This document shows, in pieces, positions 5,042 to 9,200 of a stretch of DNA of 10,370 nucleotides; within the stretch, counting starts at the first letter, position 1, and every line of letters begins with the position of its first letter. The translations under genes and the position numbers were made by a program. The stretch comes from Gemmatimonadota bacterium (GTDB lineage Bacteria; Gemmatimonadota; Gemmatimonadetes; Gemmatimonadales; Gemmatimonadaceae): assembly GCA_028287205.1 (NCBI GenBank), contig JAQBQC010000330.1:1-10370 (forward strand), read 5' to 3'. The notes under the pieces were generated by a model. It worked only from the letters and a program-made list of their open reading frames with translations, did no database searches and was not told the DNA's origin.

Positions 5042-6076
5042 TTATCGCGAAGCCATCTGGATGGTGCCCAGGCGCTTCTCGAGCTGCGCGACCATGCTCG
5101 CGGGGAGCGGCGCGTAGTCGAGCGACGCGGCGGTCTTCTCGCCGTTGCGCAGATACCAGCGCAGGAAGTCGACGAGCTTCTTGCCCTTCGCTGCATCCGG
5201 CTGCGTCTGATAGACGAGCAGGAAGGTAAAGGAAGAGATCGGGTACGCGCCCTTGCCGGCCGCGTTCACGATCGAGATGCGATAATCGGTGTTCTCGGGA
5301 AGCTTCGCCGAGGCCGCTGCGGCCGCCGTCGTCACCGACTCGATCGTCGGTGTGACGAACTCGCCGTTGGCGTTCTGCAGGTCCGCGAACGGGAGCGAAT
5401 TCTGCTTCGCGTACGCGAGCTCGACGTAGCCGATGGCGCCCGGCGTCTGCTTCACCTGCCCAGCCACGCCCTCGTTGCCCTTGCCGCCAAGACCAACGGG
5501 CCACGCGAGCTCCTTCCCCTTGCCCGGCGCCTGCGCCCACGACGGGCTCACGCTCGAGAGATAGTCCGAGAAGATGTACGTGGTGCCGCTGCCGTCGGAG
5601 CGGTGCACGACGAGAATGTCGCTCGCGGGAAGCTTGAGCCCCTTGTTGAGCGACGCGATCTTCTCGTCGTTCCACTTGGTGATCTTGCCCGCGAAGATGT
5701 CCGCGACCACCGGACCGGTGAGCTTGATCGCCTTGGTGACGCCCGGAATGTTGTACGTGATCACGACTGCGCCGAGCACGGTCGGGAAGTGCAGCACTGG
5801 CGATTTGAGCTTCGCCATCTCGGCGTCGCTCATCGGCGCATCGGAGGCGCCGAAGTCCACGGTGCCTTCGGTGAGCTGACGAATGCCGCCGCCGGACCCG
5901 ATCGACTGATAGTTGATCTTCACGCCCGACGACGTCGCGTAGTCGGCGAACCACTTGCTGTAGATCGGATACGGAAAAGTGGCGCCGGCGCCGTTCAGAT
6001 CCTGCGCCATCAGATTGCCGGCGAAGGTGCCGGCAAGTGCACTCGCCACAGCGAGCATGCGTACACGAGAGTTCAC
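5042..6076 (-). CDS. pstS: PstS2, soluble periplasmic phosphate-binding protein
   Basis: Second phosphate receptor, 344 residues from a GTG at 6076 that has GGAG seven bases upstream; Met7 is an alternative start. Unlike PstS1 it has no lipobox: the N-terminus MNSRVRMLAVASALAGTFAG ends in NLMAQ, an ordinary signal peptidase I site near residue 24, so the mature protein should be free in the periplasm. Phosphate ligands are intact at the same spacing as in PstS1 and E. coli PstS: T33, F34, S61, D79, R159, S163, G164, T165. Similarity to PstS1 is high along the mature chain, and parts of the two genes are identical in DNA, pointing to duplication. It is the first gene after the 6125-6164 Pho boxes and is followed by the porin. 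A difference in affinity from PstS1 is possible but cannot be read from the sequence. Confidence 0.96.
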   Translation of the reverse strand: MNSRVRMLAVASALAGTFAGNLMAQDLNGAGATFPYPIYSKWFADYATSSGVKINYQSIGSGGGIRQLTEGTVDFGASDAPMSDAEMAKLKSPVLHFPTVLGAVVITYNIPGVTKAIKLTGPVVADIFAGKITKWNDEKIASLNKGLKLPASDILVVHRSDGSGTTYIFSDYLSSVSPSWAQAPGKGKELAWPVGLGGKGNEGVAGQVKQTPGAIGYVELAYAKQNSLPFADLQNANGEFVTPTIESVTTAAAAASAKLPENTDYRISIVNAAGKGAYPISSFTFLLVYQTQPDAAKGKKLVDFLRWYLRNGEKTAASLDYAPLPASMVAQLEKRLGTIQMASR

Positions 6077-6193: not shown

Positions 6194-6229
6194 TGGGCAC
6201 GAATCAAACCAATTGGACGAATCGAATCG
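6194..6229 (+). repeat. Left arm of 36-bp inverted repeat flanking the GxxExxY gene
   Basis: The arm starts TGGGCACGAATCAAACCAAT and ends GACGAATCGAATCG. Its reverse complement recurs at 6724-6759 with 34 of 36 matches; the two differences are adjacent, at 6214-6215. The inner end touches the stop codon of the GxxExxY gene (6230-6232). It contains GAATC three times (6201, 6219, 6224) and the palindrome CCAATTGG (6209-6216). Confidence 0.9.
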
Positions 6230-6652
6230 TCACGCGGGCGGCGCGCTGATGCGCCAGGCCGGGTGTGCCGTTCGTTTTGGGTGATCGATGTAGCGTTCGA
6301 ATCGGGGAGCGGGTCCGAAATTGAGAAGGACACCCACTTCGAACGTCGTCGTTCGCAGGTAGCTGATGAGTTGCATTCGGTCAGCCGAGAAAATCTTTTC
6401 CGCCGCTTTGTTCTCGACTATCACCCGATCGTCGATGACCATGTCGAGTCGTTGCCAAGCCGCGTGCCGGCCCTTGTACCGGACATCGATGACCAACTCG
6501 CGAACGACTATGTGGCCCCGATCGCGGAGCTCATGCGCGAGTGCACCGGCATAGACACGCTCGCTCAAGCCGTAACCGTAGTAGTTGTACACGTCAAAAA
6601 AACCGCCGACAATGGAACGGACTCGCTCGGCCTCGAGCAGCTCTCCTTGCAT
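6230..6652 (-). CDS. GxxExxY family protein (PD-(D/E)XK nuclease-like, function unknown)
   Basis: A 140-residue protein from ATG at 6652. The family-defining motif is GLSERVY (G28, E31, Y34), followed by ALAHEL, then RYKGRHAAWQRLDMVIDDRVIVENKA. D70 and E80-x-K82 there sit where the PD-(D/E)XK nuclease fold has its acidic and lysine residues. The conserved QLISYLRTTTFEVGVLLNFG (94-113) completes the family pattern. Length is normal (about 125-140). It is cytoplasmic, with no signal or membrane segment. Biochemical function is not established for the family, which is often multi-copy in genomes. It has lower GC than its neighbours and lies between inverted repeats. No clear Shine-Dalgarno is seen. 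It has no evident link to phosphate and is probably an insertion. Confidence 0.88.
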   Translation of the reverse strand: MQGELLEAERVRSIVGGFFDVYNYYGYGLSERVYAGALAHELRDRGHIVVRELVIDVRYKGRHAAWQRLDMVIDDRVIVENKAAEKIFSADRMQLISYLRTTTFEVGVLLNFGPAPRFERYIDHPKRTAHPAWRISAPPA

Positions 6653-6665
6653 TCAGCAAACGTTC

Positions 6666-6690
6666 GTCACATGCCTTTGTGAGGCGTGAC
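6666..6690 (-). other. Imperfect stem-loop just upstream of the GxxExxY gene
   Basis: On the minus strand GTCAC-GCCT and AGGC-AT-GTGAC form a 9-bp stem with a 2-base bulge and 5-base loop, 13 bases before the ATG. It could be a leader hairpin or an operator; the sequence alone does not decide. Confidence 0.3.
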
Positions 6691-6723
6691 CCGACCATTT
6701 CACACCGTGGCATCTTCCCGCAC

Positions 6724-6759
6724 CGATTCGATTCGTCGCATTGGTTTGATTCGTGCCCA
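6724..6759 (-). repeat. Right arm of 36-bp inverted repeat flanking the GxxExxY gene
   Basis: Reverse complement of the 6194-6229 arm at 34 of 36 positions. It lies 71 bases upstream of the GxxExxY start and 21 bases past the phoR stop codon, so a phoR readthrough transcript would contain both arms and could fold them into a long duplex. Confidence 0.9.
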
Positions 6760-6780: not shown

Positions 6781-8487
6781 TCACCCCGCGTCCGGAAAAA
6801 ACGCGGACACCGTCGTCCCCTGTCCCACCACGCTCGTCACCTGCACCCGGCCGCGATGCGCCTCGACGAGATGGCGCACGATCGCGAGTCCGAGCCCCGT
6901 ACCGCCGGAGTCGCGCGCCCGCCCGGAGTCCGCGCGGTAGAAGCGCTCGAAGATGCGCGACAGATGCTCGGCCGCGATGCCCACGCCGCTGTCGCGCACG
7001 CCGATCGTCGTGCCGCGCCCACTGCGCTCGCTGAACATCACGATGGTGCCACCCGCGTTCGTGTGACGAATCGCGTTGTCCGCGAGATTCGCATATACCT
7101 GCCGAATCGCGGTCGGATCCGCGAACGCGGTCTCCGCGCCCGCGCAGATCTCGACTGTGAGGCGCACCCCTTTCTCGAGTGCCGCGCGCAGCCGGCCCGC
7201 ACTCACCTCGCTCGCGACCGCACGCAGATCCACCGCGACGGGATTCGGCACCCAGCCGCCCGACTCGATGCGCGAGAGATCGAGCAGGTCGTCGACGATC
7301 TGCTGCATCCGCTGCGCATTCGACTGAATCGCCTCGACGAAGCGCATCCCCTGCGCCGGCGGCACGTCGCCCGCGGCGAGCGTCTCGGCGAAACCCAGGA
7401 TCACCGTGAGCGGCGTCTTGAGCTCGTGTGACACGTTGGCGACGAAGTCTCTACGCACCGCTTCGACACGCCGCGATGCGGTGAGATCGAACACCGCGAG
7501 CACCACGCCGCCGTCGCCGAGCGCGCGCGCGGTGAGCATCATGCTCTGTCCGTCGACGGTGATCTCGATGGGCTCCGTCGACTCGCCCGACAACGCCGCG
7601 GCGAGGGATTCCCGCAGCGTGCGGTCGCGCGGAAGAAGATCGGCAGAGAACGGAACTGTGTCCTGCAGCCTCAGCATCCGCCGGCCGCTCTCGTTCACGC
7701 GCACCACTTGTCGTCGCGCATCCACCGCGATCACTCCCTCCTGGAGCGACTCGATGACCGCGTTCATGTGCATGTCGTCGTCCTCGAGTGCCTTGAGACG
7801 GCTGGTGAGCTGTTCGGCCATTCGATGCACCGCTGCCGCCAGATCGCCGACCTCTCCTGGTGCAGAGAGCGCGGGGCGGCGCGAGAGGTCGCCCGCCGCG
7901 AGTGCCTGCGCGACGTCGCGCAGCTCGACGACGGGGTTCGAAACCGCGCGCGAGAATGCGGCGGCGAGCAGCAGCGCGGCCACGAGCGCGACGAGTCCCG
8001 AGAGCAGAACGTCGCGCTGTCCGCGCGCGACGATCGCGTCCAGACTCGAGGTCGAGATCGAGACGCGCGTCACGCCGAGCTCCGACCTGACCGCCACATA
8101 GAGCTCGTGATCGCCCGCCGACGGGCTCGTGCGGTCGGCACTCCCCACACTGTCGCGCAGCGCGGCGATCACCTCGGGGCGATTGCTGTGATTTTCGAGC
8201 CGATTCTTCGATTCTCCCTGAAACTCGGAGTCGCCGACCACACGGCCCTGGTGATCGATGAGCGTGACGCGATGTCCGATGGCGGCGCCAGCGCTCGCCG
8301 CCAGCGCATCGGGATCCGCCGCGGCCGTCCAGTCGCGCGCGACCAGCCGCGCCTCGCGCGTCAGCTGCGCGATCTCGAGCTCCTCGAGCTGGCGGCGCAG
8401 GCGCACGCCGCTCAGAAGCACGAGCAGCACGATGAGCACGGTAACGACGAGCACCACACCCAGAAGGAGGCGGTGCGCCAGCCTCAC
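6781..8487 (-). CDS. phoR: PhoR, phosphate-responsive sensor histidine kinase
   Basis: Membrane kinase that controls PhoB. It has 568 residues from a GTG at 8487 overlapping the phoB stop as GTGA; frame upstream of this is only phoB in another frame. Order of domains: membrane segment 1 (about 7-25), extracytoplasmic region of about 130 residues with HRVTLIDHQGRVVGDSEF and ENHSNRPEV (about 72-105), membrane segment 2 (about 160-177), HAMP linker (about 178-232), PAS domain (about 243-335, VIESLQEGVIAVDA), HisKA with phospho-acceptor His354 in SHELKTPL, and HATPase with N-box NLADNAIRH (467-475), G1 DSGVGI (499-504), FERFYR and G2 GTGLGL. The periplasmic domain is the layout of Gram-positive-type PhoR rather than the short enterobacterial form. 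Assignment as PhoR rests on architecture and on sitting beside phoB and pst genes. Confidence 0.93.
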   Translation of the reverse strand: MRLAHRLLLGVVLVVTVLIVLLVLLSGVRLRRQLEELEIAQLTREARLVARDWTAAADPDALAASAGAAIGHRVTLIDHQGRVVGDSEFQGESKNRLENHSNRPEVIAALRDSVGSADRTSPSAGDHELYVAVRSELGVTRVSISTSSLDAIVARGQRDVLLSGLVALVAALLLAAAFSRAVSNPVVELRDVAQALAAGDLSRRPALSAPGEVGDLAAAVHRMAEQLTSRLKALEDDDMHMNAVIESLQEGVIAVDARRQVVRVNESGRRMLRLQDTVPFSADLLPRDRTLRESLAAALSGESTEPIEITVDGQSMMLTARALGDGGVVLAVFDLTASRRVEAVRRDFVANVSHELKTPLTVILGFAETLAAGDVPPAQGMRFVEAIQSNAQRMQQIVDDLLDLSRIESGGWVPNPVAVDLRAVASEVSAGRLRAALEKGVRLTVEICAGAETAFADPTAIRQVYANLADNAIRHTNAGGTIVMFSERSGRGTTIGVRDSGVGIAAEHLSRIFERFYRADSGRARDSGGTGLGLAIVRHLVEAHRGRVQVTSVVGQGTTVSAFFPDAG

Positions 8488-9200
8488 GACGCTCGCGCCG
8501 ACGGTGAGCGCAGTCGGTAGCCGAATCCGCGCACCGTCTCGATGAGATCGGACGCGACACCGAGCTTGGTGCGGAGCCGCTGAATGTGCATGTCGACGGT
8601 GCGCGTCTGGATGTCCGGCGCGGCGTCCCACACCGTTTCGAGCAGATGCGCGCGCCCCTGCACGCGCCCTCGTCGCTCGGCGAGTGTGAGCAGCAGCTTG
8701 AACTCCGTGGCCGTGAGCTCGATCTCCGCGCCGTCGATCTTCACGCGGTGTGCCGAACGGTCGATCTCGATCGGCCCGATGGTGAGTGCGTCGCTCGCAG
8801 CAGTGCCGGCAGCCGCGAGGCGCCTGAGTATCGCGCCGACGCGCAGCACGAGCTCCTGCGGACTGAACGGCTTCGAGAGATAGTCGTCGGCACCGAGCGA
8901 GAGGCCGCGGATCCGATCGGCCTCCTCACGGCGCGCCGTGAGCATCAGCACCGCGACCTCGCGCGTATTCTCGGCCGCGCGCAGCTGCTCGAGTACGTCG
9001 AAGCCGGACATCCCCGGAAGCATGAGATCGAGCACGACGAGGGCGGGGCGCTCCTCGCGCGCCGCCTGCAGCGCCTCGGCGCCCGTGGACGCCGTCGACA
9101 CGCGGTAACCGCCCTTCGCGAGATGATAGGCGACGAGCGCGACGATGTCCTTCTCGTCGTCGACGACGAGCACGCGCTCGCCGCCCGCGGGCGCGCTCAC
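8484..9200 (-). CDS. phoB: PhoB, OmpR-family response regulator of the Pho regulon
   Basis: Transcription factor that, when phosphorylated by PhoR, binds Pho boxes. It has 238 residues from a GTG at 9200 that overlaps the udk stop as GTGA. The receiver domain (1-125) has acidic pair D14/D15, phospho-acceptor D58 in VVLDLMLPG, T88 and K110 in LSKPF. The C-terminal winged-helix domain (about 138-232) shows LTATEFKLLLTLAERRGRV, then the recognition-helix region TRTVDMHIQRLRTKLG and the wing IETVRGFGYRL, all typical of PhoB/PhoP. The likely targets inside this window are the boxes at 3668-3707, 6125-6164 and 9882-9899. phoR follows with a four-base overlap. Confidence 0.95.
   Translation of the reverse strand: MSAPAGGERVLVVDDEKDIVALVAYHLAKGGYRVSTASTGAEALQAAREERPALVVLDLMLPGMSGFDVLEQLRAAENTREVAVLMLTARREEADRIRGLSLGADDYLSKPFSPQELVLRVGAILRRLAAAGTAASDALTIGPIEIDRSAHRVKIDGAEIELTATEFKLLLTLAERRGRVQGRAHLLETVWDAAPDIQTRTVDMHIQRLRTKLGVASDLIETVRGFGYRLRSPSARAS

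Follow-up and report, generated by a model that had tools for sequence, protein, structure and literature searches.

A GxxExxY gene between inverted arms

The window, by which we mean the whole analyzed stretch of 10,370 nt from a Gemmatimonadota bacterium (assembly GCA_028287205.1, contig JAQBQC010000330.1), contains a gene of the GxxExxY family enclosed by two inverted repeats, below called arms, and this gene-plus-arms unit lies between genes encoding a PhoR-like histidine kinase and a PstS-like phosphate-binding protein (Table 1). Compared as inverted repeats, the arms of 36 nt agree at 34 positions, and the best ungapped inverted score in the surrounding 1.4 kb is 30, while 60 Markov shuffles yield at most 16. 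The stop codon TGA (6230-6232) directly adjoins the left arm, and the ATG (at 6652) is separated from the right one by 71 nt. The coordinates and the shuffle test thus agree with a sequence-only reading of the window, which had described such arms, one touching the stop codon and the other 71 nt before the start. The iterated 9-nt words that make up the window arms were absent from that reading. The hairpins formed by the flanking arms fold well.

Other statements of the same reading hold as well. The Pho-locus setting is confirmed by both neighbors, the kinase having HAMP, HisKA and HATPase_c domains, and all three genes are on one strand. The GC content, reported as lower than in the flanking genes, is 0.589 in the gene and 0.572 in the unit, compared to 0.691 in the histidine kinase gene and 0.643 in pstS2. 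No transposase is seen in the unit, since the gene itself belongs to PDDEXK_3 and the sole other frame of at least 80 aa largely within the unit (antisense, 6263-6682, plus strand) matches no Pfam family.

Table 1. Features of the unit and its neighbors in the window.
Feature	Coordinates	Strand	Description
Left arm, 3' of the gene	6194..6229	+	TGGGC, three 9-nt words and ATCG; abuts the stop codon
First 9-nt word of the left arm	6199-6207		ACGAATCAA
Second 9-nt word of the left arm	6208-6216		ACCAATTGG
Third 9-nt word of the left arm	6217-6225		ACGAATCGA
GxxExxY gene	6230..6652	-	140 aa; predicted PD-(D/E)XK nuclease, RecB/Cas4-like type
Leader, right arm to start codon	6653..6723	-	71 nt
Right arm, 5' of the gene	6724..6759	-	Counterpart of the left arm in inverted orientation, 34/36 identical
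PhoR-like histidine kinase	6781..8631	-	Upstream in transcription order; start of the open reading frame not refined; 81-87% identical homologues in four congeners
PstS-like phosphate-binding protein (pstS2)	5042..6076	-	Downstream neighbor

The product matches PF13366 (PDDEXK_3; 104.6 bits, E 5.5e-30, cut-off 22) and the NCBIfam model TIGR04256 (GxxExxY; 98.9 bits, E 2.2e-28, cut-off 35). In the alignment of 25 proteins, G28 and E31 of the GxxExxY motif, D70, E80, K82 and Q94 are invariant, and Y98 is nearly so. The predicted structure (predicted local distance difference test, pLDDT, 91.2) matches SSO0001 and other nucleases, and with the conserved D...ExK site and the matching fold of the model, the protein has the features of the PD-(D/E)XK superfamily. 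Among PADLOC defence models, the window protein has only weak Cas4 matches (E of at least 0.0022), and the Bacteroides protein of locus L198, considered below, has none. Of 60 genomes around and including the window genome, 28 have genes of the family, as do 23 of 60 Bacteroides genomes. In the open-access literature we found neither a function or biochemistry for GxxExxY proteins nor a paper linking them to repeats.

Inverted arms across the GxxExxY family

To score the arms, the 300 nt that precede the conserved domain were compared with a segment beginning 60 nt ahead of the stop codon and ending 250 nt beyond it, and the best ungapped inverted match was taken. By this measure other GxxExxY genes are flanked by arms too, as a score of at least 14 is reached in 91 of 170 distinct loci from several phyla, with duplicates removed. 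In particular, this holds for 26 of the 69 loci from the 60 genomes that include the window genome, for 41 of the 80 loci from a broader contig collection (by record title Gemmatimonadota, Bacteroidota, Chloroflexota, Acidobacteriota, Desulfuromonadales and others) and, before de-duplication, for 27 of the 30 Bacteroides loci. The same score is attained by none of 334 equally spaced placements in the same loci (first two sets), by 7 of 1035 mismatched upstream/downstream pairs (first set) and, for random placements across 800 kb of Bacteroides DNA, by 6 of 2933. At a score of at least 18, the counts are 21/69, 29/80 and 25/30 in the three sets and 0/334, 1/1035 and 0/2933 in the controls.

The period of the arms is 9: in the 76 of 94 arms that are at least 24 nt long, the mean autocorrelation is 0.43 at lag 9 and 0.33 at lag 10, against about 0.27 for shuffled sequence. 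The word itself varies by gene lineage (ACGAATC, ACGCGGATT, CACAGAGGA, CACAGATTA, AGAACAAA and others). Moreover, protein closeness tracks arm similarity among loci with non-homologous flanks (Mantel test, 93 loci, two of them duplicates by a later check; rho 0.27, 0/999 permutations), a modest correlation to which host composition may contribute. The comparison of loci shows, at the sequence level, that inverted arms are a common feature of the GxxExxY family and that the word goes with the gene lineage. The word can also change from gene to gene within one genome, as in G020 (loci L025, L063, L070, L079, L085), where no two of several GxxExxY genes have arms of the same word.

The genes in 78 armed loci tend to run in the same direction as both neighbors (44 vs 9), while in arm-less loci the numbers are 19 and 17. 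Insertion is probably tolerated partly through this co-orientation.

Gene-less copies and filled and empty sites

The window genome (G000) is a metagenome-assembled genome, 68% complete, in 574 contigs. The sequence-only reading had suggested a search for the arm elsewhere in this genome and for relatives that lack the gene, and both have been found. The window arm recurs in G000 as gene-less palindromes of two facing arms on three contigs (C180, C244, C409). Both G004 and G001 also have copies away from any detected GxxExxY gene, the latter in at least 8 places spread over 7 contigs. The phoR-pstS2 gap is devoid of a GxxExxY gene in all four congeners examined. Thus, the arm is not confined to this place, and the gene is not vertically conserved there. 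Among the 25 aligned proteins, the closest to the window protein is that of G002 C61 (69% identical), which has related arms at a different locus. The syntenic site contains no unit in G000 and G003, holds another palindrome-like insert in G001 (judged by eye), and in G004 coincides with a contig end inside an ACGAATC arm.

Several further inserts and motifs have been observed in these genomes. In G003 (L092), a gene-less palindrome of another kind, which has a CACAGAGG-like word, fills the phoR-pstS2 gap. Several Gemmatimonadota copies (L096-L109; L011, 3727-3820) have recurring AACTGC motifs immediately beyond the outer ends of their arms. The second GxxExxY gene of G000 (C242) has its two arms on the upstream side, and these are built of another 9-nt word, ACGGATTAA ACGGATTGA.

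In 60 Bacteroides genomes we counted the CGGAT pattern, defined as three words with at most one mismatch, on both strands, so that a palindrome may count twice. Fourteen genomes have 8 or more occurrences, and a GxxExxY gene is present in 12 of these 14 vs 11 of the 46 others (Fisher test, 5e-5); the reversed control pattern occurs in none of the 60. A gene was assigned this word if the pattern, with at most two mismatches, was found in its flanks. All nine genomes with a CGGAT-armed gene have 8-125 occurrences beyond those at the genes, compared with a median of 1 in the 14 genomes with an other-word gene and a median of 0 in the 37 gene-less ones.

The site between sufC and sufD provides filled and empty alleles in close relatives (G060, G107 and G117). 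In B. cellulosilyticus DSM 14838 (G060, L198), the unit lies between these genes, downstream of sufB (NCBIfam assignments). The sufC and sufD genes of G117 are 98.7% and 94.6% identical to those of G060, and its site is empty, with 3 bases in place of 444. In G107 the flanks are 97% and 94% identical to those of G060, but the gene is only 58% identical and the arms differ. The closer relatives of these genes are elsewhere: G060 and G101 have genes of 86% identity within flanks that are only about 78% identical. Between G107 and G066 the identity is 81% for the gene and 79% and 75% for the flanks, and a 47-codon fragment in G099 shares 89% identity with the G107 gene. Near-identical surroundings of diverged genes imply that one spot has been filled by different lineages, or that the insert has been exchanged without its surroundings. 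In total, 8 of the 30 Bacteroides genes are at the suf site, and 9 of the 30 lie just before one other conserved reading frame. In G096 (L228), a AATTATGAA-type palindrome occupies the sufC-sufD gap, where other Bacteroides hold GxxExxY units.

A search of the G060 genome with its own unit yields 52 matches, the unit itself counted. Among 14 further places that were read, 13 have both arms without the gene: 10 fit the strict pattern, and 3, in which the second arm has diverged, were recognized by eye. In the remaining place the first arm is followed by masked N. We also compared 400 kb each of G060 and G117, and 160 kb could be aligned in blocks longer than 800 nt. The differences, classed by eye, include several intergenic gaps with a palindrome in one genome only (e.g. 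G060 C62 near 1402394). At least three gaps (G060 C62 near 1379046, 1400573 and 1470295, vs G117 C1) hold different palindromes within surroundings that are about 92-97% identical. One further site (G060 C62 near 1559189, G117 C1 near 1942301) carries other repeated inverted words, GTTTCA and TGCCA, respectively. The gene-less copies of G117 fall, by eye, into families that are alike beyond the arms. Some CGGAT-word palindromes are also nested in an outer inverted pair, TAAATGATAATTTA / TAAATTATCATTTA, which is exact in five G117 copies (L368-L372); a similar outer pair surrounds them in G060 (L252, L257, L258, L262).

A candidate mobile element and its alternatives

The comparison shows that gene-less copies are dispersed, that sites can be filled or empty, and that one site has been filled by different gene lineages. 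Judged from sequence, the mobility of the gene-plus-arms unit is well supported, and its coming and going, together with the scattered gene-less arms, suggests a very small mobile element of a type not described so far. We consider it rather probable that the unit is a selfish element, resembling the repetitive extragenic palindromic (REP) repeats with their RAYT enzymes, whose GxxExxY nuclease recognizes its own arms. The stretch 6194-6759 would then be a minimal element comprised of one nuclease gene and two inverted arms of iterated words of about 9 nt. We infer word recognition, cutting and a copying step by the GxxExxY protein: it probably binds its own words, either as a duplex or as an arm-formed hairpin, its RecB/Cas4-like active site would cut or process the unit ends, and the gene with its arms would thereby be copied into tolerated intergenic gaps. 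Acting in trans, the protein would scatter gene-less palindromes as well, in the way proposed for RAYT and REP sequences.

The sequence-only reading had proposed a minimal mobile unit, either non-autonomous or self-sufficient. Its mobile or exchangeable character stands; as to the choice, the abundance of arms in Bacteroides, which follows the matching gene, favors a self-sufficient element with a nuclease acting on its own ends, while a parallel among genes of another family speaks against it. These genes (TIGR02436, which we take to be the four-helix-bundle family and to which we presume S23 to belong; L298-L327) encode no nuclease and are boxed by inverted arms in 26 of 29 readable loci of the same 60 Bacteroides genomes, and CGGAT arms are weakly associated with them (p 0.05-0.08). 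Inverted word arrays are therefore not exclusive to GxxExxY, and a shared or third-party mover is possible. The period of their arms is 7 (autocorrelation 0.76 at lag 7 and 0.74 at lag 14; 25 arms), and such family specificity, 9 in one case and 7 in the other, fits each protein reading its own arms.

Several further observations weigh against a nuclease acting on its own arms. No arm pair reaches the threshold in 79 of the 170 loci; in some loci both arms are upstream of the gene (L013, L042), and in others none is visible. Genome G001 has at least 8 ACGAATC places, yet its only detected gene bears ACGGAT arms. There are 58 CGGAT occurrences in G096, which has no PF13366 gene, and 48, 20 and 11 in G117, G076 and G073, respectively, whose gene has another word; our guess is that the G117 copies are orphaned, its suf unit being missing. 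Moreover, genomes with an other-word gene exceed gene-less ones (p 0.005), and strict word matching does not predict the excess. As the genomes share ancestry and the events are not independent, the abundance and correlation tests are weaker than their p-values. Finally, no clean target duplication was recognized at the filled/empty pairs compared, where divergence and A+T-rich edges limit the test.

One alternative is a homing-type element, whose nuclease cuts the empty site (e.g. the sufC-sufD gap) and whose filled allele is copied by host repair, the arms being folding or terminator decoration or a by-product. As with free-standing homing endonuclease genes, one exact position, here in the suf locus, may be filled or empty and holds diverged lineages in near-identical surroundings, and the two recurrent sites in Bacteroides also fit. 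Unlike such genes, the units have arms and dispersed gene-less copies, and homing leaves unexplained both the arms on 27 of the 30 Bacteroides genes and the scattered same-word palindromes in genomes with a matching gene; in addition, the window site differs from the G002 site. We regard this alternative as unlikely.

It is likewise improbable that the gene is a passenger in a palindrome moved by a third party, either a transposase or host replication and repair, with GxxExxY and four-helix-bundle genes being two tolerated types of cargo. The common architecture of the two, the persistence of arms without a matching gene (G096, G117) and the similarity of G117 copies beyond the arms, five of them inside the TAAATGATAATTTA inverted pair, are consistent with it. 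But each gene family has its own word period, the word changes with the gene lineage, and the abundance of arms goes with the presence of the matching gene; moreover, a passenger has no need of active-site residues invariant in 25 aligned proteins. Being short inverted-repeat elements in many copies, the gene-less copies resemble miniature inverted-repeat transposable elements, but no target duplication was recognized for them, and their only coding relatives seen are GxxExxY units; no parent transposon was met, though no search was aimed at one.

An RNA-level element, comparable to the intervening sequences of rRNA, is less probable still. The arms would pair in the mRNA, host RNase III would excise the unit from operon transcripts, and the product would have another role. 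Co-orientation with both neighbors fits this, as does the same kind of arms around genes of the four-helix-bundle family, in which we presume S23 to be placed. According to passages of PMC4990558, intervening sequences consist of terminal inverted repeats with an S23 reading frame, are cut out by RNase III and have been described as selfish, mobility of the reading-frame product having once been proposed. The single reading frame between terminal inverted repeats is common to these sequences of 23S rRNA and to our units, and so is the boxing of four-helix-bundle relatives in Bacteroides; the units differ in the protein family (PDDEXK_3), in lying between protein genes instead of in rRNA and in the period of 9, not 7. 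Such processing accounts for tolerance of insertion, but not for dispersal, in particular of gene-less copies in many places, and Rfam has no match in the window; it may nevertheless operate together with the selfish element preferred here.

An ordinary vertically inherited gene with hairpins as terminators or regulators is hardly credible: the hairpins fold well and similar proteins recur at one site in several Bacteroides species, but this is contradicted by the gene-less gap in four congeners, the G002 site being empty elsewhere, gene-less arm repeats at other places, and 94-97% identical neighbors around suf-site genes of 58% identity.

Of known systems, the selfish element proposed here resembles REP/REPIN and RAYT (TnpA-REP). 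The RAYT gene lies between repeats, RAYT is considered to spread REP sequences, and it is a HUH (Y1) tyrosine transposase. As in that system, a small gene is bracketed by inverted palindromic repeats, gene-less repeats are dispersed, and repeats accompany the matching gene. Papers on the system include PMC3116915, PMC2817692 and PMC8266576. The GxxExxY units differ in having a predicted PD-(D/E)XK nuclease instead of an HUH tyrosine enzyme, arms of words of about 9 nt with lineage-specific letters, and recurrent intercistronic sites in Bacteroides. As no HUH enzyme has been found in the unit, it may work like REP/RAYT without being a member. According to the title of PMC3733652, one end of REP repeats carries a conserved tag, GTAG or CGTC; in the window, GTAG is not in the arms, and a CGTC at 6228-6231 straddles the point where the left arm meets the gene. 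From Cas4/RecB-type PD-(D/E)XK nucleases, GxxExxY proteins differ in their size of about 120 residues and in being boxed by arms.

We suggest, tentatively and with somewhat more doubt than belief, that GxxExxY proteins are enzymes of an unrecognized class of mobile DNA in several phyla, each reading the array of its own 9-nt word in inverted arms, homing to fixed intercistronic sites and scattering gene-less palindromes over the genome, and that with the parallel four-helix-bundle branch of 7-nt words they form a general class whose period is set by the protein family. In the named isolate B. cellulosilyticus DSM 14838, the gene is accompanied by at least 13 palindromes that have the same arms but lack the gene. 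If the family is tied to its own repeats, it would gain a role, a visible class of intergenic palindromes would be explained, and REP/RAYT would have a nuclease-run counterpart. If the pairing of word and protein is true, the family would also offer a natural supply of small proteins that recognize DNA and whose specificity changes.
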